This document shows, one piece after another, positions 44,281 to 64,000 of a DNA stretch of 64,000 nucleotides (the first letter of the stretch is position 1; every line of letters begins with the position of its first letter). The DNA is taken from assembly GCA_036268055.1 (NCBI GenBank), contig DATAUW010000024.1, positions 1 through 64,000 of the forward strand. Reading direction: 5' to 3'. The notes beneath the pieces were generated by a model. That model saw only the letters and a list, made by a program, of their open reading frames with translations, ran no database searches and was not told where the DNA came from. This DNA comes from Verrucomicrobiia bacterium. GTDB lineage: Bacteria > Verrucomicrobiota > Verrucomicrobiia > Limisphaerales > Pedosphaeraceae. The position numbers and the translations under genes are program-made.

Positions 44281-44904
44281 TTATTTCAAAAATTTCAGCA
44301 CTGCCTCGGTGCGCGAACGGACATGAAGTTTTTCGTAGATGTGCTTGAGATGCGTGTTCACGGTGGTGACGCTGATGGAAAAGTTTTCCGCGATTTCCTT
44401 GCTGGAATAACCCTTGGAAAGCTCCTGCAAAATTTCCATTTCACGCTGCGAAAGTTTTTCGTCCTTGAGCGGATCGCGCACGGGCTCGCGGAACGATTGC
44501 ACCACGCGGCACGCGATCTGGCTGCTCATCGGCGCGCCGCCCGCCTTGACTTCCTGGATCGCGCGAAGGATGTCCGCCGGCTCGGCGCGCTTTAACAAAT
44601 ACCCGCTCGCCCCCGCTTTCAACGCGCCAAAAATCCGGTCGTTATCCTCATATACCGTAAGGATTAGGATGCGCACCGATGGGCAAATATCCTTTAGCCG
44701 CCGCGTGCAATCCACGCCGGACATGCTTGGCAAATGGATGTCCATGAGCACGACGTCGGGCAGAAGTTTCGGGATGATTTTCAACGCGTCTTCCGCGGAA
44801 TCACAAAGTGAAGTGCAGGCATAACCGGGCGCTTCGTTCAAGTAGTTCGCGAGCTTCGTGCGAAAGCTGCGATTGTCTTCCACAATGGCAATGTTGATAG
44901 GCAT
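44281..44904 (-). CDS. NarL/FixJ-type response regulator (locus A)
   Basis: 207 residues from MPINIA; the upstream extension overlaps the kinase gene. Receiver with E9/D10, phospho-acceptor D55 (VLMDIHLPSMSG) and a KR lysine in GYLLKRAEP. The LuxR-type HTH at about 145-205 includes LSQREMEILQELSKGYSSKEIA and TVNTHLKHIYEKL. It starts 7 bases after the sensor kinase stop codon, so the pair is cognate. It probably activates locus A genes, and perhaps the divergent rhamnosidase through the palindrome at 48501. It is paralogous to the regulator at 57015. Confidence 0.93.
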   Translation of the reverse strand: MPINIAIVEDNRSFRTKLANYLNEAPGYACTSLCDSAEDALKIIPKLLPDVVLMDIHLPSMSGVDCTRRLKDICPSVRILILTVYEDNDRIFGALKAGASGYLLKRAEPADILRAIQEVKAGGAPMSSQIACRVVQSFREPVRDPLKDEKLSQREMEILQELSKGYSSKEIAENFSISVTTVNTHLKHIYEKLHVRSRTEAVLKFLK

Positions 44905-44911
44905 AATTGGA

Positions 44912-47900
44912 TTATGAAATCGGCAGCCAAATGCGGCAGGCGGTTCCCGACCCCAGCTGGCTTTCGCATTCAAAACGTCCACCGATTTTTTCCAAGCGCT
45001 TCCGCATGTTCAATAAACCGTCGCCCGGCGCGAGGACGGCGGCGTTCGCGAAGCCGCAACCGTTGTCTTCGAGCACGATGCTTAAAGTGTGTTCAGCCCA
45101 GCGAATCCGCAGCCACACTTCGGAAGCTTGCGCGTGTTTTGCGATGTTGTTGAGCGCTTCGCGAATGACCAGATAAAGGTTGTGGCGCACCTCGGAAGTC
45201 AGCGGCACTTCGGGCAAGGTCTCCTCCACATCGAGACGGCAGCGCACGGAAGTGTTGCGGAAAAATTCCTCGGCCACATGTCGCAGGTACGACGCCAGGC
45301 TTGGCAACGAATCATTCGCGGGATTCACCGCCCATACGATTTCGTCGAGCGACGAAACTAACTGCCGCGATTTCTCGGAGACTTCGCTCAACTGATAGCG
45401 CGTATTTTCCGGCACCAGTGAGTCGTGGCTTTTCACGGCGCTGAGAAAACGGATTTCCGTAAGCGTTGCGCCAAGGTCGTCGTGCAAATCCCGCGCGATG
45501 CGCGTGCGCTCTTCCTCGAGCGCATGCTGGCGTTCGGCGCGTTCGCGGCTTTTGATTTCAGACGTGAGTTGTTGCGAACGCTCCTCGACTTGCCGCCGCA
45601 AAAGCGTGATCCACACCATCGCCGCCAGCAATCCGAGCAATAACGCGCCCATCACTGTGAGCGCATGGCGCATCGTCCACCATGAAGGCCGCGCCAGCAC
45701 GCGGATGCTCGCCGGCGAATTTAGCAAAAGCTCGAACGAATCAATTTCACGATTTGCCGAACGGTCGCCGCCCTGCCCCACATAAACGCCCGTCAAGCCA
45801 AGCAGGCTGCCCGGCAAAATATCCGGCAGCACGCCGTTTCGCTTTTCCAGCCGCGCGACGAAACTGCGATTGCCCGTTTGCAACTCTAAAATTTGTTCAT
45901 TGCGGTCGGCGCTGATATTCAGCAGACGAGAAGTCACGGACACGAGCGTTGAATCGAAGAGCCCATTGAGCATGGCGTTGCCCGCCAGTTGCCGCGGTTC
46001 CGGCAAATCAGCCTGGCCGATAGTTTGCGCAAGCGCCTCGCGCAACACGGGAGACGCGCCGTTCATGTCCGGAAAACCGACGACTTCAACCTGATCGCCC
46101 GGCCGGAGATCAGCCGATTTTTGCGGCCTGAAGTGAAAACCATTCGTGCCGTCCATAACGAAAAATTCGCCGTGTTGCTCGCCTAAGACGAGTCCGCTAA
46201 TACGCACGCGGCGCAAGGCATCCGCCCGCGCATCGAACAAACGCAAATCATAGGCGTGCTTGAGCGGGAGCGCGAAAGGCTGCGCAGGTGGCAATTCATC
46301 CACGGTGAAGGTGGTGTTGAAAAGCCGCAGACGCGGCAGGAGCATTTGATTTTTATCGCGATCGGGACTGCTCACACCGCGGACGCGCACCAATGCGCCT
46401 TCGACTGACTTGAAAGCATTGTCTTCGATATCGTGATATTGGATGTTCACTTTTCCACCGCGCGTCAGGAGCACGATGTTGTCCGTCTGTGGCGATATGA
46501 CGATGCCGGGAATCTCGACGTATTTGGTGGCGACGGCGCCGTTGATAAGTTCATCCCATGTCGGGCGGACCGGTTCAGGCAGAATGCCCGGACCGAGATA
46601 ACTCGCGTGGTGGATTTGGACATCGGGCGCAAAATCGGCGTGCGAAATACCTTCAATTTCCCAGTAATCACCAATCCGTGGAAATCCTGATGCCGTTGGT
46701 CCAACGTAAGAAACGTAAATGGACGAGGTTGAGTCCTGAATGAAAAAATCCCCGCCGACTCGCGCGGTGATGATGCCGCGGATTTTCACCGGATAGCCGC
46801 GTTGAGCTTCCTTGCGGCTCAGGCGCATCACCTGGACGGCGGTGGTGAGCAACGGCAAACCTTCGCCCTGGGCGTCCACGCTCGGAACTATTTTGCGATA
46901 AAAACTCGAATGAATAATCGCCCGGGCATTCGCGCGGTCCAGCCAGCCGAGAACTTCAATCTGATCGCCGGATGAAGGCTTGGGCTGCGAAGATTCTATC
47001 TCGACCTTGCCGGAGCTATCGGTGAGCGTAAAAATATTTTCTGCCGAATTGGTTGCCACCGTTCCGCTGAGATGAACAATGGCGCCGGAATTTTCGACTT
47101 CGTTCGTGCTGAGGATGGCTGCGATATTTTCGACGGGATGTTCATTCCAATGCGCGGGGTCCATTTCAAGAATGGAAATTTGGTCCGCGCCGGGAACGAC
47201 GAATGACGCGACCATTTTGCCATCCACCGCATGCGCGCTTTGATATAGCCCTACGCACTTGATCCGGCTATGCGAGAGCAGATTCCACGGCAGCGCGCGG
47301 TCCTCCATCACCCGCACATAAACGGGCCCGGCAGCGGAAGAAAGTTCAATCCACGGCGACCGGCTCTGCCCGCGAACATGCGAAACCGCGCCCTCGATCT
47401 CAACCCACTGTCCTTCCTGTGCTTCATGGGATAACTGGCCGGAAAAAAATTGACCGGGTGCGGACACGGGCGCATCTCCGAGAATCGTGATATGCAAGGG
47501 CACGTCCTCGATGAATAGCCGCGAACCATCATCGGACTTCGACCAGAAGCGATAAAGCCCGGCTCGCGGCGCGGAAAAATAACCGGTGAACACCAATCCA
47601 ACACCTGGATCCCGCGTGCGAACGCCAATATCGAAATTAGTCGCCACTCCGCTTTTAACCGCGGACAATCGCGCGAAAGGGGGTAACGATTCCCATTGGC
47701 CTTCGTAGCATTGATAATCCACACCGTGACTCAGTTTGGTGGTGTCATCGTGATTGGGCGGAGCGCGAAAAAGTTCATCGCTCGGCACCGGCTGTCGCGG
47801 CAAGCCAGGCCCTTCGACATCCACTTCAAGCGCGAAATCCCCGGTGTTGTTGAACCATTCAACCCGCACGGGGTGAAGACCGGCGGACAAAAATGTTTGA

Positions 47901-48346
47901 CCAGTGCCTTCAAAGACCATGTGATTGCCGTCGTTATCAACGAGAGCGATGGAGCCCGCCTCGCCGCGTCCAGCCTCGCAACTACCTTCGATCAAAACAT
48001 GCCGCCCCGGCTGCAATAATGCCTGCCCATGCCCGGATATTTTCAAGATGATGCAACCCGCACTGTCCTGAAAAACGATTTGGTCGCCCGCAGAACTTAC
48101 CCACAACACAGTGCCTTCAAGGCGCACCGAGCAGCCTGAAATTTCCTCGCGCGCGGCGAGTTGGCGGAGTTGAACGGCGTCGGTCAGCAGCGTGGCGGCT
48201 GGAACAGTTTCGGGTTCGGCGTTCGCGATTGAAGCGATGAATAGAGACACCAAGCATGCCAAAAAGGCAATGGACTGGCTTCGATTTTTAGAAGCCCTCT
48301 CACTCCACCATTCACGGAGCCCGCGGATGAAGTCAGGAGTGTTCAT
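44912..48346 (-). CDS. Sensor kinase with permuted PA14 and OB-like repeats (locus A)
   Basis: 1144 residues. N-terminal signal/membrane segment (24-43); OB-fold-like beta segment (about 55-125); a PA14 C-terminal half at 134-194 (LVDNDGNHMVF, SAGLHPVRVEWF, GPGLPRQPVPSDELF); then a PA14 N-terminal half at 211-290 (YEGQWESLPPF, FTGYFSAPRAGLYRF, SDDGSRLFIED), so the domain is circularly permuted. Several further OB-like segments (312-880) follow, then TM 895-917, coiled coil, HisKA_3 with H955 (RIARDLHDDLG) and ATPase (VIREALNNIAKHA, DNGCGF). PA14 domains often bind glycans, so a polysaccharide or fragment ligand is inferred. Translationally adjacent to its regulator (7 bases). Divergent from the GH78 at 48666. 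Confidence 0.88.
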   Translation of the reverse strand: MNTPDFIRGLREWWSERASKNRSQSIAFLACLVSLFIASIANAEPETVPAATLLTDAVQLRQLAAREEISGCSVRLEGTVLWVSSAGDQIVFQDSAGCIILKISGHGQALLQPGRHVLIEGSCEAGRGEAGSIALVDNDGNHMVFEGTGQTFLSAGLHPVRVEWFNNTGDFALEVDVEGPGLPRQPVPSDELFRAPPNHDDTTKLSHGVDYQCYEGQWESLPPFARLSAVKSGVATNFDIGVRTRDPGVGLVFTGYFSAPRAGLYRFWSKSDDGSRLFIEDVPLHITILGDAPVSAPGQFFSGQLSHEAQEGQWVEIEGAVSHVRGQSRSPWIELSSAAGPVYVRVMEDRALPWNLLSHSRIKCVGLYQSAHAVDGKMVASFVVPGADQISILEMDPAHWNEHPVENIAAILSTNEVENSGAIVHLSGTVATNSAENIFTLTDSSGKVEIESSQPKPSSGDQIEVLGWLDRANARAIIHSSFYRKIVPSVDAQGEGLPLLTTAVQVMRLSRKEAQRGYPVKIRGIITARVGGDFFIQDSTSSIYVSYVGPTASGFPRIGDYWEIEGISHADFAPDVQIHHASYLGPGILPEPVRPTWDELINGAVATKYVEIPGIVISPQTDNIVLLTRGGKVNIQYHDIEDNAFKSVEGALVRVRGVSSPDRDKNQMLLPRLRLFNTTFTVDELPPAQPFALPLKHAYDLRLFDARADALRRVRISGLVLGEQHGEFFVMDGTNGFHFRPQKSADLRPGDQVEVVGFPDMNGASPVLREALAQTIGQADLPEPRQLAGNAMLNGLFDSTLVSVTSRLLNISADRNEQILELQTGNRSFVARLEKRNGVLPDILPGSLLGLTGVYVGQGGDRSANREIDSFELLLNSPASIRVLARPSWWTMRHALTVMGALLLGLLAAMVWITLLRRQVEERSQQLTSEIKSRERAERQHALEEERTRIARDLHDDLGATLTEIRFLSAVKSHDSLVPENTRYQLSEVSEKSRQLVSSLDEIVWAVNPANDSLPSLASYLRHVAEEFFRNTSVRCRLDVEETLPEVPLTSEVRHNLYLVIREALNNIAKHAQASEVWLRIRWAEHTLSIVLEDNGCGFANAAVLAPGDGLLNMRKRLEKIGGRFECESQLGSGTACRIWLPIS

Positions 48347-48665: not shown

Positions 48666-51600
48666 ATGAAAATTTGCCGTTTTATAAATTGCCTGCTTTT
48701 TATTTTGGCGGGTGCAGGCTCCGCTTTCGGCGGCCCGGTGATCACTACCAACACGCTTCCTTCGAGCGCCTCGGACGTCGTCGGCAGCAGTGTCACTTTT
48801 ACGGTTGCCTTGACCAATGCAAACGCAGCCGCCTTCCAGTGGCAGGTGATTCGTGCTGGCGCCACAAATAATATTCCCGGCGCTACCAATACGACGCTCA
48901 CGCTTGCAAACCTGCAACTCACCGACACCGCCTCGTATCGCCTTCAGGCATCGAACAGTTCGGGAATCACCTTCAGCGCTGCCAGCGCGCTTACGATCAA
49001 TCCCGCGCCGGCTCCCGCGAAAAATATAGTTACCTCCTTCGCCAGCCAGACCGGTCCCGGCGCGGCGAACACGAATTTTATTCCCACCTGGATTGTCCCG
49101 GCCAACAGTCTTATCGCCCGACAATCGCCCAACAGCGTCGGAACGGGTAATTTCAGCCAATACGGCGCGGGCATGGTTTCCTCGCTGACCGACGGCGCGT
49201 TCGGTTCGTTAAATTATTGGCCAAACGTGGGCGGCAGCAGTACGGAAGTAACTTGCGGCAGCGGCGCGGGACAGTTTGTTACTTATACTCTCGCTGGTTC
49301 GCCCACCGGATATGATCTGACTAACATCATTGTCTATGGCGGATGGGGGGATGCGGGGCGCGACGAACAGGCTTACACGATTTATTATTCCACGGTTGCC
49401 AATCCCACTACTTTTATTCCGCTGACCAGCGTGAGTTACAACCCATCGAATCCCAACGGCATTCAGTCCGCGACGCGAGTTACTTTTTCATCTTCGTCAG
49501 GTGCGGCGTTTGTTCAAAACGTCGCGGCCTTGAAATTTGATTTTACTTCTCCCGCTCCGGAAAATGGATTCTGCGGATATTCAGAGATTGATGTCTTCGG
49601 TTCGCCGACTGGCGCTCCACCCGTCGCCAATCCGCCCACCAGTTCGCCTTTGTCTCCAGTCGCTGCGGGCACATCGGTGACTTTTTCTGAAACAGCATCT
49701 GGCACCATCCCGCTTCAATATCAATGGCAAACCGATAATGGCAGCAGTCCATCCAGCTATTCAGATATATCGGGAGCCACCGGTTCAAATTTTGTGCTCA
49801 ATACCTCCACGCTTGGAGGCTTCACTATGAACTTCCGTGTGCGAGTGACAGACGCAAACGGCACGACAACAAGTTCCGCGATTCCTCTGACCATCAACGG
49901 TACTAATACAATTACTTCTGCCACGACCGTCACGAATTTGCGCTGCGAACATCTGGCAAACCCGCTGGGCATTGATGTCACCAAACCTCGCTTGAGTTGG
50001 ATCATGAATTCGTCGCAACGCGGAGATCTTCAAACTGCCTATCAAGTATTAGTTGCCAGTTCGTTGACAAATCTCACGCAAGGCCAAGGCGATGTCTGGA
50101 ATAGCGGCAAAGTTCCGTCCAGCCAATCGGTACTCGTGGAATATGCCGGGCAGCCGCTGGCTTCGGGCCAAGTCTATTATTGGCAAGTGCGGATATGGGA
50201 TGCCAGCGGTAATCCATCGGATTGGAGCGCGCCCGCGACATGGAGCATGGGGTTGCTCAATCCATCGGACTGGACAGCGAAATGGATTGGCATGACAACC
50301 GATCCCAATCTCACGCCCGCCGCGCCGAGCCCCATGTTGCGAAAAACTTTTGCGATCAACAAAACCGTGACTCGCGCTACCGCTTATATCTGCGGCCTGG
50401 GATATTATGAACTTCAACTCAATGGCGCGAAAGTAGGCGATCACATCATGGATCCTTCCTGGACGCGTTATGATTATCACGCGTATTACGTGACTTATGA
50501 TGTCACCACTAATCTCATCTCAGGAACCAACGCCGTCGGTGTGCAATTAGCCAATGGCTTTTACAATCAGTGGAGCAGCGACGCGTGGAACACCGCGACC
50601 GCTCCCTGGCGCGCGCTTCCGCAAATGATTCTGCAACTGGTCGTCCAATACAGCGACGGCACTGCGAACACCATCATCAGCGACGCGTCGTGGAAAGCCT
50701 CGACAGGTCCGATTCTTTTGGATGCAACCCGGCTGGGCGAAACCTATGACGCGCGCCTCGAAAAATCGGGTTGGTCCACCGGATCGTACAACGATTCGAG
50801 CTGGACCAATGCCATTTTGCGCGAAGGAATTGCCGGTTCGCTTTTTGCCCCGGATGCCGAACCCGTCAAAGCGATGCAGTTGGTAGCTCCCAAAAAAATT
50901 ATTCCCGTATCCGGCCAGCCGGGCGTTTATACTTTTGATTTCGGACAAAATCTCGCCGGTTGGGGCAGGCTGAATGTCACTGGCCCGGCGGGAACAACCG
51001 TGCGAATGGTCTATGGCGAAAAAACCAACAGCGACGGTTCGGTGGACCAGAGCAATATCAACTACCTCGTTTCACTTCAGCAATATTTTCAAACCGAGAG
51101 CTATACTCTCAAAGGCGGCGGCGCTGAAACCTGGGAGCCTAGTTTCACTTATCACGGTTTTCGTTATGCCCAGGTTACGGGCTTACCCGACGCGCCCACC
51201 ACCAACACGCTCCTCGCGCGTGTCGTGCGAACGGCCTTCGATCCCGCCGGAAGTTTTCTTTGTTCCAACGATCTGCTCAATCGCATTGAGACGAATACTA
51301 TTTGGTCTTACATGGGAAACTTTGTCGGCATCCCGACCGATTGCCCGACGCGCGAAAAAAATGGCTGGACCGGCGACGCTCAACTCGCCTGTGAGATGGG
51401 TTTGATCCATTTCCATAGCGAGGCGGCTTACACGCGGTGGATCAGGGAATTCGGCCCAGCCCAACTTTCCAACGGCGAACTTTCTGGTGTCTTCCCCAAT
51501 GCGAACTGGGGTTACGGCGAAGGTCCGGCGTGGGAATCCGCCTATCTGCTGGTCCCCTGGTTTGTCTATCAGCACTGCGGCGATGTGCGAATCCTGATGA

Positions 51601-53843
51601 CGAATTATGGCGGCATGAAGGCGTATGTAGATTACGCCACGAGCGTCGCTTCCGGAAATATTGTTTCCTATGGACTCGGCGATTGGGAACCTGCGGGCAC
51701 AGTAACACCGGCGTCGGTGACGGACACGGGTTATTATTATGAAGACGCTTTGATCGTCGCGCAAACGGCTTCGATGATGGGTAACTCAGTAGATGCCCTC
51801 CAATACAGCAACCTCGCCGCTCAAATCAAGCTATCGTTCAACCAATCTTTTCTGGACACGAATACCCATGAATATTCCGGCGGCACGCAGACTGCGCAAT
51901 CGTGCGCGCTCTATCAGGGGCTGACTGCGTCCAATCAGATTCCCGCGGTTGCAAATGCGCTTGCGGTCGCGGTTCAACAAAATGGCAATAAAATTGATAC
52001 CGGAATTCTCGGTTCCAAATATCTATTGCGAGCACTGTGTGACGATGGCCATTCCGATACCGCCTGGGCGCTTGTGGTGCAAACGAATTATCCAAGTTGG
52101 GGTTATCAGATATTGGCGGGCGCAACGACTCTATGGGAAACCTGGAGTGGCAGTGGCGGCCAGGATTCACTCAATCATATCATGTTCGGCGATGTCTCTG
52201 CCTGGTTTATTGAATACGTAGCCGGTATTCGGCCCGGCGCTCCCGGCTATCAAACTGTCATTATCAAACCGGAGGTAATGAACGCACTTGCGTCCGCGCA
52301 AGCCACGCACGACTCGCCGTACGGCATGATCTCGAACGCGTGGCAGATCAACGGGAAATCGGTGACGATGAATCTAACCATTCCGCCCAATGCCACCGGC
52401 CTCGTTTATCTTCCCCTGCTCGGCACTGCAATTACTAACGTCACTATCCTCGAATCGGGAAAGACAATCTCGCAAAACGGCGCGGCGACCTCGAATGATC
52501 CGGGCGTCGCGTTCAGTCATTACGAAGGCACTTCGCCGCAGGATTATTTAGCATGGACGGTTGCGTCGGGAAGTTACCAATTCTCGTGGCAGGTGGTTGC
52601 TCAAGCGCCGCGCGGTCTGGCTGCTTCGGTTGGCAATCAGCAAGTGAAGTTGTTGTGGAACGCCGTGCCGGGCGTGACGAGTTACAACGTCAAGCGCGCG
52701 CCCAAATCGGGCGGGCCCTACACCACCTTGATAAATGGAAATTTCAGCTCCTATACGGACATGTCCGTCACGAATGGCGGGATTTATTACTATGTCGTCT
52801 CCGCCATCAGCGCGAACGGTGAGAGTAGTAACTCGGCGGAAGTAACCGCCACGCCGGTTCTCAATGTAAATTTTGGCTTTGAAACTCCGAACGCTGGCGG
52901 ATACGAATACAATCCCGCGAATGCCATTTGGACTTTTACTGGAGCCAGCCCAGATGGTTCGGGCATTCTCGCCAATGGCAGCGCTTTCGGAAACCCTGAT
53001 GCGCCCGAAGGCGTTCAGGCCGCGTTCGTGCAAAGCCACGGCAGCATCTCACAAATTTTGCCCGGGTTTTCTCCGGGGACAACCTACACCATCACCTTTG
53101 CGGCAGCGCAGCGATCCGGCGCGAATCAACATGGCGGCGAGTCGTGGAATTTGATGATTGATAACACGGTCATCACTAACTACAACCCCGGGCCGACCGC
53201 GACGAGTTACTCCAATTATACCGCCCGTTTCACGGCGACGGCGAAGATACATACCTTGTCATTCGTGGGAACCGATTTGGCGACGGGCGACAACACGGTC
53301 TTCATTGACAACATAAACTTTGTCCCGCCCATTCCTCCGGTTAATCCTCGCGTGACTTTTACCAGTCCAGTCAATAACACCAGCTTGGTTGCGCCGGGCA
53401 CTATCAACCTTTCGGCAACCGTGATCGCCAATAGTAACTTTGTTGCGGGCGTTCAATTCATCTCCAACACGAACAACCTCATCGCCCAGATCACCAATGC
53501 TCCTTATTCATTCACGTGGACCAATGTCGGGGCGGCAGTTTACAACTTGATCGCGCGCGTCATTTTCAACGGCACGAACACCTCCGATTCGACCACTGTA
53601 GCCGTGACGGTGACGAATTTTGCGCCCGTGATCCAGTCCGTGAGTTTAAATTCGGGAACGCTTTTTCTGGGAGGTTTTGGCAAAGCTTCGCAACCTTATG
53701 TGCTGACCCAAGCCTCAAATCTGATTCCTCCGACGGTGTGGATTCCCCTGCTAACCAATATGTCGGATGCCAGCGGCAGGTTTGCATTTACTAACTTGCC
53801 CGCCACGAACACGCAGCAGTTTTATCGAATCTCCACGCCGTGA
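48666..53843 (+). CDS. Secreted GH78 alpha-L-rhamnosidase with accessory domains
   Basis: 1725 residues. Signal peptide 1-23; Ig-like domain (24-117); GGWxDxGRDxQ module (119-313); Ig-like domain (about 318-411); GH78 (about 423-1300) beginning TNLRCEHLANPLGIDVTKPRLSW, with the rhamnosidase N-domain (YELQLNGAKVGDHIMDPSWTRYDY split) and the catalytic-domain motif TDCPTREKNGWTGDAQ. A fibronectin III domain (about 1313-1400), a CBM-like beta-sandwich (about 1400-1554), a Big-type Ig domain (1558-1652) and the shared C-terminal domain (1655-1725) follow. It should release alpha-L-rhamnose from polysaccharides outside the cell. The only plus-strand gene in this half, it converges with the second GH78 gene, 39 bases apart. 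Confidence 0.92.
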   Translation: MKICRFINCLLFILAGAGSAFGGPVITTNTLPSSASDVVGSSVTFTVALTNANAAAFQWQVIRAGATNNIPGATNTTLTLANLQLTDTASYRLQASNSSGITFSAASALTINPAPAPAKNIVTSFASQTGPGAANTNFIPTWIVPANSLIARQSPNSVGTGNFSQYGAGMVSSLTDGAFGSLNYWPNVGGSSTEVTCGSGAGQFVTYTLAGSPTGYDLTNIIVYGGWGDAGRDEQAYTIYYSTVANPTTFIPLTSVSYNPSNPNGIQSATRVTFSSSSGAAFVQNVAALKFDFTSPAPENGFCGYSEIDVFGSPTGAPPVANPPTSSPLSPVAAGTSVTFSETASGTIPLQYQWQTDNGSSPSSYSDISGATGSNFVLNTSTLGGFTMNFRVRVTDANGTTTSSAIPLTINGTNTITSATTVTNLRCEHLANPLGIDVTKPRLSWIMNSSQRGDLQTAYQVLVASSLTNLTQGQGDVWNSGKVPSSQSVLVEYAGQPLASGQVYYWQVRIWDASGNPSDWSAPATWSMGLLNPSDWTAKWIGMTTDPNLTPAAPSPMLRKTFAINKTVTRATAYICGLGYYELQLNGAKVGDHIMDPSWTRYDYHAYYVTYDVTTNLISGTNAVGVQLANGFYNQWSSDAWNTATAPWRALPQMILQLVVQYSDGTANTIISDASWKASTGPILLDATRLGETYDARLEKSGWSTGSYNDSSWTNAILREGIAGSLFAPDAEPVKAMQLVAPKKIIPVSGQPGVYTFDFGQNLAGWGRLNVTGPAGTTVRMVYGEKTNSDGSVDQSNINYLVSLQQYFQTESYTLKGGGAETWEPSFTYHGFRYAQVTGLPDAPTTNTLLARVVRTAFDPAGSFLCSNDLLNRIETNTIWSYMGNFVGIPTDCPTREKNGWTGDAQLACEMGLIHFHSEAAYTRWIREFGPAQLSNGELSGVFPNANWGYGEGPAWESAYLLVPWFVYQHCGDVRILMTNYGGMKAYVDYATSVASGNIVSYGLGDWEPAGTVTPASVTDTGYYYEDALIVAQTASMMGNSVDALQYSNLAAQIKLSFNQSFLDTNTHEYSGGTQTAQSCALYQGLTASNQIPAVANALAVAVQQNGNKIDTGILGSKYLLRALCDDGHSDTAWALVVQTNYPSWGYQILAGATTLWETWSGSGGQDSLNHIMFGDVSAWFIEYVAGIRPGAPGYQTVIIKPEVMNALASAQATHDSPYGMISNAWQINGKSVTMNLTIPPNATGLVYLPLLGTAITNVTILESGKTISQNGAATSNDPGVAFSHYEGTSPQDYLAWTVASGSYQFSWQVVAQAPRGLAASVGNQQVKLLWNAVPGVTSYNVKRAPKSGGPYTTLINGNFSSYTDMSVTNGGIYYYVVSAISANGESSNSAEVTATPVLNVNFGFETPNAGGYEYNPANAIWTFTGASPDGSGILANGSAFGNPDAPEGVQAAFVQSHGSISQILPGFSPGTTYTITFAAAQRSGANQHGGESWNLMIDNTVITNYNPGPTATSYSNYTARFTATAKIHTLSFVGTDLATGDNTVFIDNINFVPPIPPVNPRVTFTSPVNNTSLVAPGTINLSATVIANSNFVAGVQFISNTNNLIAQITNAPYSFTWTNVGAAVYNLIARVIFNGTNTSDSTTVAVTVTNFAPVIQSVSLNSGTLFLGGFGKASQPYVLTQASNLIPPTVWIPLLTNMSDASGRFAFTNLPATNTQQFYRISTP

Positions 53844-53882: not shown

Positions 53883-56828
53883 TTACAATGTCATCTCGGA
53901 TGTAAATTTGTAAGTGCCCGAACCGACTTCAAACAGTGAACAACCCGCTTCCCGGCGAAGAAGTTTCACTCCTTCAACCTGCGTTGCTGTTTGACCGCTC
54001 TCACGAATGTTCGCCGTGTCAGTGGACGGAACCCAAACGGTCGCGGTCGTGTTCGGCGGAACAATGACATCGAGGACAAGTTTATTTCCGTCGCGCTTCC
54101 ACGAAGTTGCGATGCGCCCGTTGATGGAATCAAAGCTCGTTTTCGCCCAGCTCAAACCTTCGCCGATGATCGGATGAATCAGAATAGTCTTAAATCCCGG
54201 ACTTGCGGGACGGATGCCACCGACACCGCCAAATAAATATTCGCCGCAAGACCCAAGCGAATAATGATTGAAGGAATTCATGCCCGCGTCTTGGAAACCC
54301 TTCTCCGGCGTCCATCCATCCCAGCGTTCCCAGATGGTGGTGGCACCGTGTTTTACCGAGAACAACCACGAAGGAAATGTGTCTTGCAATAATAACCGAT
54401 AGGCCGTGCTGGATTTGCCCCACTGCGTCAGCACGGGCAGCAAATAACTCACGCCAACGAAACCCGTCGAGAGATGTTCGTTTTTGGATTTGATGTCGTC
54501 CTCGAGATATTGGGCGGCGACGGGGCGTAATTCATCCGGCAGCAGGTCGAACTTGAGCGCCATCGCATAAGCGCATTGAGTGTTGCCACGGATGCGGCCA
54601 TCCTTAGCGACATAACGCTGGTCGAAAGCGGATTTAATATCTTGAAATAATTGTTCGTATTTCCGCGCGTTGTCGTCGCGGCCCACGGCGCGATACGAAC
54701 GTGCCAGCAGGGAAGTCGAGTACGCGAAATAAGCAGTCCCGATCAAGTCTTTGGGAGTGTCCGCGCCGATGGAAAGCCAGTCGCCATAATCATTGCCACG
54801 ATCACGTTCACGAATCAGATTCCGGCTGTGCCGATGAAGATACTCGACCCACTTGGTCATCGCCGGAAGATGCTGTTCCAAAATTCGCTTGTCGCCATAC
54901 ATCTCATAAATCGTCCATGGACAAATCACGCCGGCGTCGCCCCACGCGGGCACGCCGCCGCCGCCCATCGTATTAGGATTCACATCGCTGAACGAGCCGC
55001 TGGACGATTGGCCGTCGTCAACGTCCACCAGCCACTTGGTGAAAAAAGAAGCGACGTCGGCATTGTAGGTGGCCGTGCGGATGAACACTTGCGCATCGCC
55101 CATCCAGCCAAGACGTTCATCGCGTTGCGGACAATCAGTCGGCACGCTGAGATAATTTCCGCGCTGGCCCCATTGAATGTTCGATTGAAGTTGATTAACG
55201 CGCGGATCGGAGCAGGAAAATTCTCCCGTGCGCGGATTATCGGAAGCAATGACGATGCCCGTGACCGCATCTGCTTCCGGTTTGCTGGCGAGACCGGTGA
55301 GTTCCACATAACGAAAACCGTGAAACGTAAAACACGGCTGCCACACTTCGGTTCCACCGCCCTTGCAGATGTAATGATCAATGGACGGCGCGCCGCGAAG
55401 ATTCGCCGTATAAACCGTGCCGTTGGGATTGAGCATTTCCGCATGACGCAGCGTTATCTCCGTGCCCGCCGGAGCCGAAATTTTTAGACGAACGACACCC
55501 ACCATGTTCTGCCCAAGATCGAATACCCACGAATCGGGTTTGGGCTCAGTCACAGTTTTGGATTTGAGTTCGCAAATTTCGCGGACAGGTTCCATCACCT
55601 GCGACTCGATCGCAAGTTGCGATTCCACACGCGTATGAACTGGAATCCATTCGCTCTCGTTCAAGCCCGGTTCATCCCATCCTCTTAATTCCCGCCGAGC
55701 ATCGTAGTCTTCACCCATCATGAAATCCGTGTCGAGAATGGGACTGGCGTGTGACTTCCAGGAATCATCGGTCGCGATGCGTTCACTGCGGCCATCCTTG
55801 AATGTGACTTCCAACTGCGCGAGAAAGGCGGGCTCGGTTCCAAAAAAATGATTGCCGCCGTTGCCGATGTGACCGCTGTACCAGCCGTTGGCCAGTATCG
55901 CTCCCACTGCATTTTGACCTTGCTTCACCAACTGCGTGACATCGAACGCCTGATACCGCACGCGCTTGCGATAGTCGGTCCAATCCGGAGCGAGCACATG
56001 ATCGCCGACGCGCTGGTCGTTGATATCAACCTCATAAAGCCCAAGGGCGCTGGCGTATAAAGTGGCGTGCTCCACTTGCGAATTTAATTCAAACGCTTTC
56101 CGCAAATACGGCACTCCCGGTGACTGCCGCGGAATCGTCAGCATCTGATTTTCCTGAACTTCATTCGTGAAAGGCGCTCCGTCCAAATCATATTCGATGT
56201 AGAGTCTCTTCACCACATTGGGCGCGGGATCAACGCCCAGCGATTTATTATTTACCGTCATCGTGAGATGATTCTGTTTCACGAGCGCCGATACGGCAGT
56301 GGTGACATCCGCGCCTCTATTCCTTTCCACAGTTTCATAGATCGCGCGGCGGATTGTCAACGACGACACCATCGGCACCGGCGGTGTCCCCGCCGAAATC
56401 CATTTCGCGCTCCAGTCCGCCGCCGACAAAAGTCCCATCTGCCAATGCGCCACCGCGCTCCAATCGCACGCATTCCCGCTACGATCCCACGCACGCACCT
56501 TCCAGAAACAATTTTGACGCGATCCCAGCGCCGTTCCAGCATAACTAATTTGCGAAGTCTCGCCGGACGCCACCTTCCCGCTGTCCCACAAATCGCCTTG
56601 ATCGCTTTGCAATAATTTCAAAGACGACGCGACGAGAATTTGATACGCCGTCTGTTTTTCACCGCGCAAGCTCGAAGTAATCAGCCAACTCAAGCGCGGG
56701 CTCAACGTCCCCAGCCCCAACGGATCGGTGAGATACTCGCAGCGCAAATGAGTTACTTCGGCCGCGCTGGCAAATCGGATTTGCGGAAGGATCGCCGCGC
56801 ACAAAAGTATAAACAGAAATCGTTTCAT
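53883..56828 (-). CDS. Secreted GH78 alpha-L-rhamnosidase (locus B)
   Basis: 981 residues. Signal peptide 1-22; fibronectin-like N-domain (23-145; LRCEYLTDPLGLGTLSPRLSW); rhamnosidase N-terminal jelly-roll (about 250-415; LYEVDINDQRVGDHVLAPDW, YDARRELRGWDEP); a concanavalin-like domain; and the (alpha/alpha)6 catalytic domain from about 530 with CPQRDERLGWMGDAQ (566-580), FFTKWLVDVDDGQ and WERWDGWTPEKGFQ. This is a full-length, canonical GH78 without extra Ig modules. It sits downstream of the locus B response regulator after 186 bases, same strand. Its N-terminal jelly-roll resembles the sensor domain of the kinase at 57732, suggesting a shared ligand. Confidence 0.94.
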   Translation of the reverse strand: MKRFLFILLCAAILPQIRFASAAEVTHLRCEYLTDPLGLGTLSPRLSWLITSSLRGEKQTAYQILVASSLKLLQSDQGDLWDSGKVASGETSQISYAGTALGSRQNCFWKVRAWDRSGNACDWSAVAHWQMGLLSAADWSAKWISAGTPPVPMVSSLTIRRAIYETVERNRGADVTTAVSALVKQNHLTMTVNNKSLGVDPAPNVVKRLYIEYDLDGAPFTNEVQENQMLTIPRQSPGVPYLRKAFELNSQVEHATLYASALGLYEVDINDQRVGDHVLAPDWTDYRKRVRYQAFDVTQLVKQGQNAVGAILANGWYSGHIGNGGNHFFGTEPAFLAQLEVTFKDGRSERIATDDSWKSHASPILDTDFMMGEDYDARRELRGWDEPGLNESEWIPVHTRVESQLAIESQVMEPVREICELKSKTVTEPKPDSWVFDLGQNMVGVVRLKISAPAGTEITLRHAEMLNPNGTVYTANLRGAPSIDHYICKGGGTEVWQPCFTFHGFRYVELTGLASKPEADAVTGIVIASDNPRTGEFSCSDPRVNQLQSNIQWGQRGNYLSVPTDCPQRDERLGWMGDAQVFIRTATYNADVASFFTKWLVDVDDGQSSSGSFSDVNPNTMGGGGVPAWGDAGVICPWTIYEMYGDKRILEQHLPAMTKWVEYLHRHSRNLIRERDRGNDYGDWLSIGADTPKDLIGTAYFAYSTSLLARSYRAVGRDDNARKYEQLFQDIKSAFDQRYVAKDGRIRGNTQCAYAMALKFDLLPDELRPVAAQYLEDDIKSKNEHLSTGFVGVSYLLPVLTQWGKSSTAYRLLLQDTFPSWLFSVKHGATTIWERWDGWTPEKGFQDAGMNSFNHYSLGSCGEYLFGGVGGIRPASPGFKTILIHPIIGEGLSWAKTSFDSINGRIATSWKRDGNKLVLDVIVPPNTTATVWVPSTDTANIRESGQTATQVEGVKLLRREAGCSLFEVGSGTYKFTSEMTL

Positions 56829-57014: not shown

Positions 57015-57728
57015 TCACGAATCCGATGGTTTATGCTGCTGCGCTTTTGAAGCCATGTAACGAACCACCGCCTCCGTTCGCGAACTCACATGCAGCTTGT
57101 AAAACACATGTTTCAAATGGCTGCAAACCGTATCAATGCTCAACTCCAATTTATCCGCGATCAACTTGTTCGGATAACCCTGCGAGAGCAAAACCAAAAT
57201 CTGTTCTTCGCGCACCGAAAGCCGGATCGTCTCCTCGCGCGTCTTGGCTTTCCGCCGGAACGACTCGATCACTCGCCGCGCGATTTGCCCCGTCATCGGC
57301 GCGCCACCGCCGATCACTTCCAACAACGCGGCCCGCAAGTCCGACGGCTTGGTTCGCTTTAACAGATAACCATCCGCTCCCGCTTCGAGCGCCAAAAAAA
57401 CCAACTCCTGATCATCCATCGCCGTGAGGATGATGATTTGTATTTCGGGCAGCAAAGTTTTCAGCCGCGCTGTGCATTCGATCCCCGACATGCGCGGCAA
57501 AAAAATATCCATCAGGATCACGTCGGGATGCGCTTCGGGAATCATGCGCAAAGCCTCCTCCCCACTCGTGCAGTCACAGACGCACACGAAATCGGGAAAC
57601 GAATTCAGCAACCGCATCCAACTCTCGCGCACCTGCGGCTGGTCCTCGATCAACGCGACTTTGATCGGCGCTTTTTTCGACGGCCCGGCGGCGGGTTGTT
57701 TGACGCTTTTGGCGGGTGATCGAATCAT
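57015..57728 (-). CDS. NarL/FixJ-type response regulator (locus B)
   Basis: 237 residues: a short basic N-terminal tail (1-21), a receiver with E28/D29, D74 (ILMDIFLPRMSG) and GYLLKRTKP lysine, then a LuxR-type HTH (about 165-230; LSVREEQILVLLSQGYPNK, DTVCSHLKHVFYKL). It begins 3 bases after the sensor kinase stop codon, so the two are co-translated and cognate. The GH78 gene downstream and the locus B genes upstream are the likely targets. Paralogue of the regulator at 44281. Confidence 0.93.
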   Translation of the reverse strand: MIRSPAKSVKQPAAGPSKKAPIKVALIEDQPQVRESWMRLLNSFPDFVCVCDCTSGEEALRMIPEAHPDVILMDIFLPRMSGIECTARLKTLLPEIQIIILTAMDDQELVFLALEAGADGYLLKRTKPSDLRAALLEVIGGGAPMTGQIARRVIESFRRKAKTREETIRLSVREEQILVLLSQGYPNKLIADKLELSIDTVCSHLKHVFYKLHVSSRTEAVVRYMASKAQQHKPSDS

Positions 57729-57731
57729 GGA

Positions 57732-59333
57732 TTAAACGGCATTATTCAACTCTGAACTTTTTGTTTCATTGATCGAAGCGGAAAGTTGCTTCGTCTTCAG
57801 TATCCACTCCCACGGCCTCCGCCGCCATTGCGAAAGTGAAACACAGAATTCCACCCGGCATCCCTTTCCAACCTGGCTGGTGACCAGGCAAGTGCCGCCA
57901 AATTCTTTCATGCGTTGCGACATGTTGATTAATCCATTGCGTTCGGTGCGCGCTTTGGCGGCGTCGAAACCTTTGCCGTTGTCCTGCACCACGACGATCA
58001 GGTTCTGGCGTTGCCAGCGGATTTGCAACGTGACTTCAGTCGCGCCCGAATGCTTCACCACATTGTTGAGCGTCTCCTTGATGGCCATCAAAAGGCTGCG
58101 GCGAATCGGAAGGTCCAGCGACGCCGCGGATATTTCCGGGTCCACGTCAAACAGGCATTGGACGGAAGTGCGTTTGAAAAATTCCTGCGCATAACCGCAA
58201 ACATACGACGCAAAATCCCGCAGCGTATCCCGCCGCGGATTCACCGCCCAAAGGATTTCGTCCATGCTGGCCAGCAATCCGCGCGCCTCTTCGCAAATGG
58301 CATGAAGCTGGGGTCGCGTTTCAGATTCGAGCGACAATTCACTTTGCGCCACTTCGCCTTGCAACACCAGTTGGGTCATCCGCGAACCAAAATCATCGTG
58401 GATGTCGCGGGCGATGCGCGCGCGTTCCTGCCGGAGAAGCCACCGCTCTTTTCGATGCAGCGCCAGTTGCGTCATGAGCCCAAGGCTGATCAAAATACCG
58501 AGGCCGCACGTCGTCAGAAGTGAAACCTGAAACCATCGGCTCTGCCAGAATGAGTAAGTGACCGGTTCCGATGGCGGAATGATTTCGACATTTTCCGGCT
58601 TCACCCACCACGGAAGCGCGCCCAAATTTGCGATGATGGTTGCAGGCGGCCAGGAGTCCGGCGCCTCTGTCATCCTTTCCCAGCCGCGCACGCCCTCGGG
58701 CACGATCCGCCAGCTTTTGTCCGACTTCACTTGGAGCACGCGTCCATCGGACAGATCAACGTGCATGCCAAAGATCATTCCGGCATTGTCCGTGGAATTA
58801 AAAGCCATCACTCCCAGCGTGTGCTCGCCCGGCGTCATCAACGCCGTCAAATCGTACTCGCACAAATTCCGCCATTCCGCGCCGCGCCCCAATTCCCGCC
58901 CGTCCAGGAAAAGTGTATGCTCATTGTCAGCCGTCACGCGGACGCGCGCCTGCACCACCTTCACTCCCGCGGGGACTTCGAACGAACGCCAAAACTGGCA
59001 AGTCTGTCGGTTAAAAGTATGCGATGCCCAAATCCATGAGCCCAAGCCGTTAGTTAGAGTATCGAACGATTCCGTCGGCCCCCCCACAACGTCCGGATTG
59101 TCAGCCGTCTCCGCCGCGAATGTCATCGGCACGAAAAAACCGAAACACAATGCCAGCGCAAGCAGACCGGCCACTCTGATCCATAAGCGGCGGTGCTTAT
59201 TCGCGGAAGGTGTATTGTGGGTTCCGAAGTGCAATGGTTTATGTGGGATATGGACGAGAGAAATTTTACTCTGAGACCGCCGCAAGAGCAAGCGAGATAC
59301 CGGCGCGCCCGTGCCGAAAATTTTCCTTACCAA
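57732..59333 (-). CDS. Sensor kinase with rhamnosidase-N-like sensing domain (locus B)
   Basis: 533 residues from a TTG start that overlaps the prepilin gene's stop by 7 bases; a GTG at residue 54 is a possible alternative. Membrane/signal segment 52-73; extracytoplasmic jelly-roll 98-213; TM 268-290; HisKA_3 with H312 ([11 protein letters not shown]); ATPase ([20 protein letters not shown]). The sensing domain shows [46 protein letters not shown] and [17 protein letters not shown], following the layout of the Bac_rhamnosid_N domain of GH78 enzymes, including the one encoded just downstream. A glycan or rhamnoside ligand is inferred. Co-translated with its response regulator. Confidence 0.88.
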
Positions 59334-60145
59334 CTCGTGGACGGATACGTGCTGAAATAAAGCTGGCGGAGGTCCTGGTCAAAAAGCTTGGTGTGGGCCG
59401 CATAACCGCCGCTGCGCGAACTTCCTTTCAAAAACTGCGTGGTTGGCTCCAGCCACTTCAACCTTTGCGCATGGCCGTCCGCAAAAGAAATTTGCCCCGC
59501 GTTGCCGTGGCGGCTGGCGGGAATGTTGCGCCAGTTGCCCGTGAGTTTCGGGCTCGCGGATTCAATGGCATAATAGCCATCGTCAATGCTGCAAAGCGAG
59601 AGCGTCGGATTGGATTCTTCGTCAAAAAAGAACGAGGCCGTGGAAGGGTCCGGCGTGATGACATCAGAAAGTTTCTCATTCTCCTTGATCCCGGGATGCA
59701 CGTCCGTCACCCCGGCGTTATCTCCCATCATGCCGTTGAGGGAATAACTGCGGATGCGCAACGTGGTTCCACCGGCGTAACTGAATTTATCCGCCGGACA
59801 GCGATAAATGCCCGCCGATTTGCTGTACGGAAAAAGTATCGCGGAATAAATATCGGCCACGTTGGTGGCGCCCGGAATACTGCTCACATCTCCTCCAACC
59901 CACGCGCCGTCACTGTTCAAATAATTCGGAGGAATGGCGTCGTGGAAATCTCCCGCGTAAAGGTGCGCCGCCAGCGTCAACTGAATCAGGTTGTTGAGAC
60001 AACTGATGCCGGTGGCCTTGTCTTTGGCCCGCGCCAGCGCTGGCAAAAGCAATGCGGCGAGAATCGCAATGATCGCGATGACTACCAATAATTCAATGAG
60101 CGTGAAGGCTTGGACTCTGGCTCTAAAACTTTGACGCGCTTCCAT
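59327..60145 (-). CDS. Prepilin-type cleavage/methylation protein (locus B)
   Basis: 272 residues. A short 12-13-residue leader precedes [18 protein letters not shown], with E at +5. The body has [18 protein letters not shown] and [15 protein letters not shown] and ends [16 protein letters not shown], an exact H-x9-DG motif. It overlaps the start of the sensor kinase gene, which is unusual for a pilin-like gene and suggests a signalling link. It lies 135 bases after the giant secreted protein gene, with a hairpin between. Confidence 0.92.
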
Positions 60146-60280: not shown

Positions 60281-63200
60281 TCAAGGTATCCGGAGCTGGA
60301 AGAACTGCATCGGCACCGAGGACGATACCGGGATGCTGTTCGAGAAGCCGCCGCTTCCGTCAAAATTTCCCATTGTGTTTGTCGTCCACGCGGCGGTCAG
60401 GTTGGTCGTGCTCAGAATCGTGTAACCGCTTCCCGCCGACCCGCCGGTGCCAGTGAAGACCAGCTTGCCGTTCACGATTTGCGGCGCATTGATCTTCGGA
60501 CGCGACATCGCCGCCGAGCCAAATATTTGGATTTCCGCATAGCCTGAATAACCGTTTTCACCCGCCGGAGTCAGGAAGTTAAACTGCACGGCCACGGCGT
60601 TGGTTGCAATCGGCGCGCTCGAACCGGACATGAAGGTCACGCGGTCCGCTGATGGCACACTGCCCGGAAGCACGGGATTATAATTAGCCACGCCAATGGG
60701 GTTGAATGTCGTGGGGTTCGCCGCCGTGGCGTAAGAAACCGTATAAGCCTGCTGATCGCGTCCGCCATCGGCCCACCCGGCATAACTAATAATGCTGGTG
60801 AGATTATAGCCCGACGTCGAGGTGGGCAGCGTGTAGATAAATGAATGTCCGCCCGCTCCCGAACCGCAGGTCGCAAAACCCGCAACGCTCGCGCCGAACA
60901 AATCCAACTGGCCATCGGTCAACACCGGCAACCCGCCTTCGCCCGGATCAGCCGTGAAGCTGCCGCCGACGCCGGTGCTGCTGGGCGATTTGCCCGCAAT
61001 CAAACTGCCCGACGCCACCGTCCAGGTTGCGTTGAAGGCGCCGTTGCCCGTTTGATTCGCCGGCGAAGCAATCACCCCATTCCCGTTCGCTGCCGGTACC
61101 GGATTCACCGTGAATAGATTCGTGCTGCTGTACGCAACTCCCACGCTGTTGGAAGCCCGCAGTTGATAGGAACCTGAATTCGCAAGTTGCAGATTATTTA
61201 ACGTCAAGGTCGGGCTCGTGGCTCCGGGGACATCGTTCGTCACTCCGCCATTCACGGTCTGCCATTGATAATTAATTGGCGTCGTTCCGTTGAAAGAGGC
61301 CGTGAAAGAAACCTGGCTGCCAACCACGTCGGAGCCCGTCACTGGCACGATGTCCGAAGTTACGTAGGGCGCGAGTGGGATGGCCGCCGAGGGCGAACCG
61401 AAGACGCCGATTTCCGCCAGTCCGCCGTAGTTATTCTCAATCGCCGGACTGGTGAAGGAGAATTGAATCTTGGCAACATTGGTCGCGATCGGGCCGCCGG
61501 TTGACGATACGATGATCCGGTCTGCGGATGGCACACTTCCCGAAAGCGTGGGATTGAAGCTCACCGATGCAATCGTGTTAAACACGGTTGGACTCAACAC
61601 CGTGGAATAAGAAACGGTATAAGCTTGCTGGTCGCGGCCGCCATCACTCCAGCCGCCGTAGGTGACGATGTTGGTGATGTCAAAACCGCTGGCCGGTCCG
61701 CTAAGCGTATAAGTAAGTGATGTTCCCGCGTTCGCCCCCACGGTGGCCAGGCTGCTGTTCACCCCGCCACCCACGGCTCCAAATTTGCCATCCGTCAGAA
61801 TTGAGATTCCTCCCGAACCTTCCAGATTGAAAACCCCTGAGCCAATACCCGAAGGAGAATTGCCCAGAATCAAATCATTGGTCGTTCCGATCAGCCAATT
61901 AGGCGTGTAAGTCGAACCCCGCCCCGTTTGATTCGCGGCGGATGCGATCACCCCGTCGGCTCCGCTTTGCAACGCATTTCCCGCGGAGTTCACGACCAGC
62001 GAACTGCCGCTGCTCTGCGACGTTCCCGACGCATTGCTGGCGACCAGAAAGTAACTCCCGCTGTCGGTCAACTGAAGGTTGCCCAGTGTGAGTGTCTGGT
62101 TCGTCGCTCCGGCAACTGCCGTCGCATTGGTGGAACCGCTGGCAATTTCCATCCATTGAAAAGACGTTGCGCCGGTGAAGGCTGCGGTCAAAGTGATTTG
62201 ATCGCCTTCAACATCCGAGGCGCTCCCCGGCTCGGTATCTTGCGCGAGAATCGGCAGCGCCAGTGATGGCACGCCGTAAACCTGAAGTTCGCTGTAACCA
62301 ACAAAACCATTTTCCGGCCCTTGATCCAGCGTGCTAAAATCGAACTTCAATGCCGCCACATTTTTGACCAGCGCCGTCGCGCCCGAAGGAACGATGGTCA
62401 CCTTCGTCGCCGACTGTGTGCCCGAAGGATTCGACGGATTGAACAGGACATTCGCAAACGCGGTGAAATTCGTGGGCGATGCCACCGTGGAATAATAAAG
62501 AATGTAACGCTGTTCATCGCGCCCGGCATCCGCCCATCCGCCATAAGTCACGATGTTGGTGACGTCATAACCCGTGGTCGAATGCGGAAGGGTATAGATC
62601 ACATATTGCCCCGCGCCGCTCGATACGATGCCGCCCGTCACCACATCCGGGCTCGTGATTCCCCCGGGATAAAGTGTGCCGAATCTTCCATCCGTCAGCA
62701 CGGCGACGGTGCCGCCAATATGTTCCTGGGGATCATTGAACGAACCCGGCCCGGTCGTGCTCGGCAAGGTTCCCGCGATCAGGTCGTTGTTCGTCGAGAT
62801 GTTCCAGCTTGGCGAAAAAGTCGTATTGCCGCCGAGCCCGGTTTGATTGGCGAACTCGATGACAATATCATTCGTGGCCGGCGGAGGTGGGTTGACCGCA
62901 AACACTACCGGAGTGCTGGACACCGGGCCGCCCAGCGCGTTCGACGCGAGCAAATAATAGATGCCGTAATCCGTGAGTTGCAGGTTTGTAATTGTCATCG
63001 TGGAATTAGTCGCGCCGGGAATGTCAATCGGCGTGTCGCCGTTGGTGTCCTGGAATTCCCATTGATAAGTGATCGGCAGCGTGCCGCCAAAAACCGCCGA
63101 GAACGTGATCTGGCCGCCGACCACTTCCGAGCCCGACGAAGGCAGCGTATCGCTCAGAACGATTGGCGCGCCTTGGGAAGCCGTGATGATGACCGGCATG

Positions 63201-64000
63201 CTGGTCGAACTGCCCAACCCGCTCGTCACGATGACCTGATACTCGACCGGCCCGGTGAAAGTCGTCGTGTCAACCGCGAGTGTCGCGCTCGTGGCCCCGG
63301 AGACATTGCTGAAAGTTGCCCCGCCGCTGCCGTTGTCCGTTTGCCATTGGTAAGTGAACGGCCCCGTTCCCGCCGGGTCTTCGGTCAGCGTGACAATCGT
63401 TCCGGCAAAAACATTCGTGCCGGGAACCGCCGATGGAACCAAGGCGGCGGGCGTCGCTGCCGCCGGACTCGCATCCAGCCGGACGTTGTCATAAACAATT
63501 TCGGTTCCCGTGCCACCCGTGGCTTCCAACACAATCGTCAGGGGCGTGCCCGCGTGTTGTCCCGTCGTGAAAACCAAAGTATTATCCGCAAATGTTCCAG
63601 CCGTGATTTGCGTGGAATCCACCGGCGCGGACGCAAGCACAGTCCCGCCGGGAAAATTTCCACTCAGCAAAGAGATCGCTCCCTGCCCGCCGTCGCCGAG
63701 CAAAGTATTGCCCACGGCCACGGTCAAAGTATAAACCGTATTGGGTTGAAACGTGCCCACCGCCTGCCAGCAATCTCCATTTCGCCCCGCGGTGCCAACG
63801 CCCATAAAAAGATAATTGGTTCCGTCGCCCGGTGCAGGCAGCGTGCCCGGAGCGCCGCTGGTGTCGGCAAACATTCCATTGGTCGGGTTCACCAGATTGA
63901 CACCGTTATTCCCCGCCGCCCGCCAGAAAATACCGACGTCCGGGCCGGCGGTGGTGGCGCCGTCGGCCAGCCCAAATCCCGTCGCGGAATTGGTCCACTG
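60281..64000 (-). CDS. Giant secreted Ig/GGW-module protein, 5' end beyond the window
   Basis: At least 1240 residues; the frame stays open to the right edge, so the true start and signal peptide lie outside. Visible order: a CBM-like beta-sandwich (about 1-185; WQAVGTFQPNTVYTLTVAVG), two Ig-like domains, GGW module (62265-62872), Ig-like, GGW module (61387-61955), Ig-like, GGW module (60509-61083), and the shared C-terminal domain ending FFQLRIP. No catalytic motif is recognised. The Ig-like domains share ITYQWEF / NYQWQTV and LQLTDSGSYFL patterns. Likely a surface or secreted glycan-binding scaffold; it heads locus B as far as can be seen. Confidence 0.85.
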   Translation of the reverse strand, partial: QWTNSATGFGLADGATTAGPDVGIFWRAAGNNGVNLVNPTNGMFADTSGAPGTLPAPGDGTNYLFMGVGTAGRNGDCWQAVGTFQPNTVYTLTVAVGNTLLGDGGQGAISLLSGNFPGGTVLASAPVDSTQITAGTFADNTLVFTTGQHAGTPLTIVLEATGGTGTEIVYDNVRLDASPAAATPAALVPSAVPGTNVFAGTIVTLTEDPAGTGPFTYQWQTDNGSGGATFSNVSGATSATLAVDTTTFTGPVEYQVIVTSGLGSSTSMPVIITASQGAPIVLSDTLPSSGSEVVGGQITFSAVFGGTLPITYQWEFQDTNGDTPIDIPGATNSTMTITNLQLTDYGIYYLLASNALGGPVSSTPVVFAVNPPPPATNDIVIEFANQTGLGGNTTFSPSWNISTNNDLIAGTLPSTTGPGSFNDPQEHIGGTVAVLTDGRFGTLYPGGITSPDVVTGGIVSSGAGQYVIYTLPHSTTGYDVTNIVTYGGWADAGRDEQRYILYYSTVASPTNFTAFANVLFNPSNPSGTQSATKVTIVPSGATALVKNVAALKFDFSTLDQGPENGFVGYSELQVYGVPSLALPILAQDTEPGSASDVEGDQITLTAAFTGATSFQWMEIASGSTNATAVAGATNQTLTLGNLQLTDSGSYFLVASNASGTSQSSGSSLVVNSAGNALQSGADGVIASAANQTGRGSTYTPNWLIGTTNDLILGNSPSGIGSGVFNLEGSGGISILTDGKFGAVGGGVNSSLATVGANAGTSLTYTLSGPASGFDITNIVTYGGWSDGGRDQQAYTVSYSTVLSPTVFNTIASVSFNPTLSGSVPSADRIIVSSTGGPIATNVAKIQFSFTSPAIENNYGGLAEIGVFGSPSAAIPLAPYVTSDIVPVTGSDVVGSQVSFTASFNGTTPINYQWQTVNGGVTNDVPGATSPTLTLNNLQLANSGSYQLRASNSVGVAYSSTNLFTVNPVPAANGNGVIASPANQTGNGAFNATWTVASGSLIAGKSPSSTGVGGSFTADPGEGGLPVLTDGQLDLFGASVAGFATCGSGAGGHSFIYTLPTSTSGYNLTSIISYAGWADGGRDQQAYTVSYATAANPTTFNPIGVANYNPVLPGSVPSADRVTFMSGSSAPIATNAVAVQFNFLTPAGENGYSGYAEIQIFGSAAMSRPKINAPQIVNGKLVFTGTGGSAGSGYTILSTTNLTAAWTTNTMGNFDGSGGFSNSIPVSSSVPMQFFQLRIP

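Follow-up and report, generated by a model that had tools for sequence, protein, structure and literature searches.

We describe a module of about 205 residues, unnamed in Pfam and NCBIfam, that occurs four times in the window, i.e. the whole 64,000-nt stretch analysed (positions 1 to 64,000, forward strand, of contig DATAUW010000024.1; Verrucomicrobiia bacterium, Pedosphaeraceae; GCA_036268055.1), once on the plus strand and three times on the minus strand, in each case within an open frame. As the best explanation we propose, with a confidence of roughly 65%, that the module forms a new carbohydrate-binding family with a discoidin-type fold and serves a rhamnosidase locus.

Four copies of one module in two proteins

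Copy 1 (48993-49628, plus strand; profile match 339 bits) is 212 residues long and covers residues 110-321 of a GH78 alpha-L-rhamnosidase (host 1). The other three are carried by a single minus-strand protein (host 2), in which copy 2 comes first (62231-62896; 336 bits, 58% identity to copy 1), followed by copy 3 (61364-61990; 336 bits, 47%) and copy 4 (60473-61117; 324 bits, 48%). A BLASTP comparison of host 1 with host 2 returned three module pairings at E = 3e-72, 2e-71 and 4e-67, and a leave-one-out profile built from the three minus-strand copies scored the GH78 protein at 245 bits, whereas the highest-scoring of 500 shuffled proteins reached 4.3 bits. The open frames, the identities to copy 1, the BLASTP pairings and the leave-one-out profile thus bear out the four positions reported in an earlier note on this DNA. 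Its sequence landmarks (ANQTG/ASQTG, LTDG, GGWxDxGRDxQ, NP, ENG..GY.E..VFG) were seen. In the profile the edges lie some 5-12 residues further out than given there, for a length of about 205 residues instead of about 195. A profile search of the 5.1-Mb genome (E <= 0.01) found no fifth copy. Each of the four is preceded by an Ig-like domain.

Host 1 (48666-53843, plus strand; 1725 aa) has the order signal-peptide-like start, Ig, module, Ig/PKD-like, GH78, fn3, Big_7 and tail, and its GH78 part is complete (PF25788, 2e-43; PF08531, 2e-51; PF05592; PF17389, 7e-92; PF17390). The Ig-like domain before copy 1 lies at 48735-49001 on the same strand (PF13927, 1.2e-6, residues 24-97). Host 2 (60281-64000, minus strand) runs beyond the window, and its full open frame in the genome comprises 1315 residues, with a signal-peptide-like start, an HpiC1-like domain, an Ig domain, three consecutive Ig-module units and a tail. 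PF13927 matches it in three stretches. Its module-preceding Ig-like domains, all on the minus strand, lie at 62891-63172 for copy 2 (PF13927, best stretch residues 289-354), at 61988-62254 for copy 3 (PF13927/PF07686 stretches; aligned) and at 61103-61369 for copy 4 (PF07679, residues 893-962; aligned). From their signal-peptide-like N-termini, both hosts are putatively secreted. Residues 26-176 of host 2 resemble PF22825 (HpiC1-like cyclase, 5e-14), which takes its name from Stig cyclases, and this N-terminal part is more likely a binding domain than a cyclase. Just outside the window, host 2 is adjoined by a 1033-aa protein with a CsgG-like and a TPR part (L028 10762-13860).

Both hosts end in a C-terminal tail of about 70-75 residues (..W.TN....FFRLRxP / FYR), encoded at 53613-53840 (plus strand) and 60284-60511 (minus strand). 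A profile of this tail gave 73 matches at E <= 0.01 in the genome, mostly in large ORFs; in the two hosts it has no Pfam match, and AlphaFold2 predicts a six-stranded beta domain (pLDDT 92.8) with no significant PDB match. The tail could be a Verrucomicrobial C-terminal sorting domain.

No match to the module in Pfam, NCBIfam or PDB sequences

None of the four copies matched Pfam or NCBIfam even at E <= 10, and a search of Pfam with 61 relatives gave scattered weak matches, none of them credible, with a single one to F5_F8_type_C (PF00754) at 0.067; the PF00754 gathering cut-off was not reached. PDB sequences searched with three profiles yielded chance matches or none. PF08531 has no match over the module, its match in host 1 being confined to residues 566-737. 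The Ig profiles PF13927 and PF07679 match the neighbouring segments and not the module, and an Ig-like identity was rejected after an hhalign comparison with the Ig domains of the window itself (probability 0.1%, E 0.56). Laminin_G_3 (PF13385) likewise has no Pfam match on any copy, and a LamG identity was rejected at an hhalign E of 0.47. The description as unnamed, which the earlier note would have given up for a named-domain profile covering the full module, therefore holds for the four copies and the 61 relatives in Pfam, NCBIfam and PDB sequences, and no such profile was found in Pfam or NCBIfam. A paper describing the module was not found in the open-access literature; one may still exist.

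A predicted discoidin-type fold

The AlphaFold2 model of copy 1, computed from the 61-sequence alignment, is mostly beta with a long N-terminal extension (pLDDT 93.2, pTM 0.90). Foldseek ranked BT0459, the galactose-binding CBM of BT3015C, the DOC domain of HECTD3 and many CBM32s at the top. In VIA-align, IFT25 reached a Z of 14.0 (rmsd 2.4 over 128 residues), BT0459 12.4 over 146 residues, and CBM32, SUN and other discoidin-like domains 11-12. On the strength of this model and these matches, the module is predicted to be a discoidin or galactose-binding-like beta-sandwich like CBM32, IFT25 and SUN domains, as the earlier note had suspected from the ending of the module. A new fold was rejected, given the Foldseek and VIA matches to discoidin/CBM32-type sandwiches.

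Such a fold raises the question of whether the module is a strongly diverged branch of F5/8 type C / CBM32 that needs no separate name, with the same function as in our proposal. The Foldseek and VIA matches are to that very fold, and a profile comparison by hhalign with the genome's own F5/8C domains gave a weak alignment (E 0.027, against 0.56 for Ig and 0.47 for LamG as controls) in which, over module residues 91-206, the strands are paired as expected. One relative in 61 touches PF00754. However, the probability of this alignment is 1.8%, the close-family alignment has no sensible match to the F5/8C profile, no copy passes the PF00754 cut-off, the module is far longer than the PF00754 model, and the F5/8C domains of the genome are all separate from it. 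We consider a mere branch of F5/8C unlikely; common ancestry of the two is no more than plausible at the level of sequence. An ordinary F5/8 type C domain is found, as an internal contrast, at the C-terminus of a GH95 enzyme upstream of the module locus (32294-36625), which also contains an Ig-like domain.

Conserved positions and the GGWxDxGRDxQ loop

The GGWxDxGRDxQ motif of copy 1 is encoded at 49338-49370 on the plus strand (module residues 116-126) and lies, in the model, in a loop between strands 107-118 and 126-133. All 61 close relatives share W118, R123, P138 and several glycines without exception, and 56 of them carry GWx[DN]xGR[DNE]; in a wider set (n = 42), L40, G68, G106, W118, V177 and E198 are among the most constant positions. 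In canonical CBM32s, ligand residues are located in the corresponding loop. The position of the loop would fit a sugar site, but we did not adopt the motif as such, because conserved discoidin residues can be structural: in a mutational study of a discoidin module, the conserved aromatics were mainly so (PMC2789033). In CBM32-5 of CpGH89, the canonical galactose-binding residues are H1392, Y1395, R1423, N1428 and F1483 (PMC3313936). The binding face of our module would consist of the loops at one edge of the sandwich.

The structural Ca2+ site of CBM32 is formed by Asp, Thr/Ser and Glu (PMC12926856). The Asp of the LTDG turn and the Glu of the last strand (GYxEI) of the module align with positions of this site; of 42 diverse copies, 37 have D67 and 38 have E198, and the Thr/Ser ligand position is not conserved in the alignments.

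Distribution and host proteins

A profile scan of 84,980 species genomes listed at least 23 loci, and every listed locus with an informative title was Verrucomicrobiota-type (subdivision 3 / Pedosphaera / Limisphaerales, Haloferula, Pontiellaceae, one labelled Methylacidimicrobium). Matches were found in 36 of 293 sampled genomes of the source order and in 30 of 387 sampled from the phylum, copy counts being lower bounds since few candidates per genome were scored. No match was found in plasmid records (tblastn), and 91 pattern matches in viral contigs included no relative.

The fetched loci contain at least 125 distinct module-bearing ORFs in 47 clusters. GH78 enzymes carry the module at the N-terminus (host 1 and four relatives) or, in nine proteins, once or twice at the C-terminus, with one further module-bearing GH78 (L146). 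GH106 rhamnosidases are fused to it in L137, L138, L144 (twice) and L145. Other partners are a sulfatase, an alpha-L-fucosidase, GDSL and SASA esterases, GH43, CotH and beta-helix proteins, and multi-module Ig proteins are also among the hosts. Many hosts carry the module once per protein, and it also occurs alone beside a catalytic domain. The GH106 fusions, at first considered a proof of rhamnose specificity in their own right, are taken as weak support because GH106 is very common in those genomes, with 10-40 matches in several distant ones.

Some hosts have no recognised carbohydrate-active domain (CotH, PATR and short PEP-CTERM proteins). The distant copies that lie directly before the PEP-CTERM signal in short proteins, and those in PATR autotransporter-like proteins, would suit a module that fixes its hosts to the surface or matrix of the producing cell itself instead of to a food polysaccharide. 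Yet PEP-CTERM proteins already have an anchor signal, hosts 1 and 2 carry a separate tail that could serve sorting, and the link to GH78 (see below) is specific, so that we regard attachment to the own surface as improbable.

A recurring rhamnosidase locus

The only two GH78 genes of the genome lie in the window, next to the four modules; the second (53883-56828, minus strand; PF17389, 4e-120) encodes an alpha-L-rhamnosidase of 981 aa without the module. By comparison, the genome holds 43 Laminin_G_3 and ten F5/8 type C copies. The second GH78 belongs to a minus-strand array of five genes, together with a response regulator (57015-57728; identity from translation), a histidine kinase with a GH2_N-like extracellular part (57732-59333; HATPase_c 4e-10, HisKA_3 1e-9), a putatively secreted pseudopilin-like protein (N-methyl, DUF1559; 59327-60145; PF07963 3e-7, PF07596 4e-6) and host 2. 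Homologues of the five array genes, with host 2 represented by its N-terminus, are found together again in several genomes, two to four at a time, in the loci L008, L016, L027, L152, L169, L181, L182, L188, L189 and L190, some of which overlap or come from the same genome; the regulator, the kinase and the pseudopilin-like protein are all part of this recurring set.

Co-location with GH78 was also seen more broadly. A GH78 lies within 20 kb of at least 21 of 48 module contigs, including GH78s fused to the module, where GH78 numbers and genome size would lead one to expect 2.2; this concerns 17 of 27 genomes. In 11 genomes, unfused GH78s of 930-1028 aa that are related to the second GH78 of the window are encoded some 2-7 kb away from a module.

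The clustering with GH78 also bears on whether the module could instead bind no sugar and have a structural or protein-protein interaction role, as a spacer or oligomerisation domain of large secreted proteins. The regular alternation with Ig domains in host 2 and its relatives would be consistent with such a role, as would the oligomerising SUN domains among the top VIA matches, the purely structural nature that conserved discoidin residues can have (PMC2789033) and the existence of CBM32-like modules that bind no sugar, such as CBM32-1 and CBM32-6 of CpGH89 (PMC3313936). A spacer would not, however, predict largely carbohydrate-active hosts together with GH78 clustering, nor a module that stands alone beside a catalytic domain and only once per protein in many hosts, and we rate it as quite unlikely.

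A second histidine-kinase/response-regulator pair is encoded at 44281-48346, such that two pairs flank the module-bearing GH78. Its kinase (44912-48346) has a PA14-like and OB-like N-terminal part, where that of the array is GH2_N-like, and both flanking kinases may sense glycans. Elsewhere in the window, a hybrid histidine kinase of 2134 aa (5008-11412) contains an uninterrupted run of at least 11 HAMP domains, a GAF domain and three receiver stretches.

Proposed function

We favour carbohydrate binding because of the fold, the fusions to several unrelated carbohydrate-active catalytic domains and the co-location with GH78. Discoidin-fold CBM32 modules of large enzymes are known to bind glycans (PMC3313936) and polysaccharides (PMC2789033). 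Speaking against it, proteins and lipids are also bound by discoidin folds, the best VIA matches of the model are eukaryotic non-lectin domains, some CBM32-like modules bind no sugar, and the hosts named above that have no recognised carbohydrate-active domain do not fit the proposal. We consider it probable that the module binds sugar, and somewhat short of an even bet that its specificity is of the rhamnose type. The earlier note had suggested an unnamed carbohydrate-binding domain; its unnamed status and discoidin-type fold stand, and binding is plausible, with the host enzymes and the locus speaking for it.

According to the proposed mechanism, the module would let secreted enzymes and multi-module surface proteins of Verrucomicrobiota hold polysaccharide, which at the source locus probably contains alpha-L-rhamnose. 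The copy in the GH78 enzyme would tether it to its polymer substrate, the three-copy Ig-module protein would capture glycan at the surface through several weak sites (multivalent binding), and the adjacent histidine kinase and response regulator would control the locus. A more specific version, with a new CBM family for alpha-L-rhamnosyl glycans and an Ig-module glycan-capture protein in a conserved rhamnosidase locus that has its own two-component switch, is possible, if somewhat unlikely in its entirety.

Verrucomicrobia degrade complex polysaccharides, but annotation is poor for the majority of their very large secreted proteins. If the module had a named profile, at least 125 proteins in the fetched regions could be annotated with it, and the recurring rhamnosidase locus and its sensor kinase would be marked and become searchable across the phylum; the module itself is a candidate CBM that can be tested and for which a class of ligand is expected.

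Comparison with known systems

With its predicted fold and probable function, the module falls into well-known classes and does not amount to a novel type of system. The novelty lies in the unnamed sequence family as such, in its size and motif, and in its connection with a rhamnosidase locus that recurs in Verrucomicrobia. With PF00754/CBM32 it shares the predicted beta-sandwich fold and the attachment to glycoside hydrolases. It differs from them in its length (about 205 residues, including a long extension at the N-terminus, against 127 in the PF00754 model), in the GGWxDxGRDxQ motif and in the missing PF00754 match.

PF08531 (Bac_rhamnosid_N), a rhamnose-linked domain inside GH78 enzymes with a link to CBM67, is found in the same GH78 protein as copy 1 and likewise concerns rhamnose. 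The two occupy separate regions, with PF08531 at residues 566-737 of host 1 and the module at 119-313 in its narrower delimitation. Among solved structures, the C-terminal part of BT0459 (6q63) and the CBM of BT3015C (7blg) are the best Foldseek matches, at 18% and 16% identity, respectively; they come from other organisms and other hosts, and no sequence-level relation to them was found. IFT25 and SUN domains, which have the highest VIA-align Z (12-14), are eukaryotic protein-protein modules with about 7-12% identity, and have the fold alone in common with the module. If the locus does act on alpha-L-rhamnosyl glycans, the Ig-module protein would do the same job as the SusD/SusE-like proteins of Bacteroidota.
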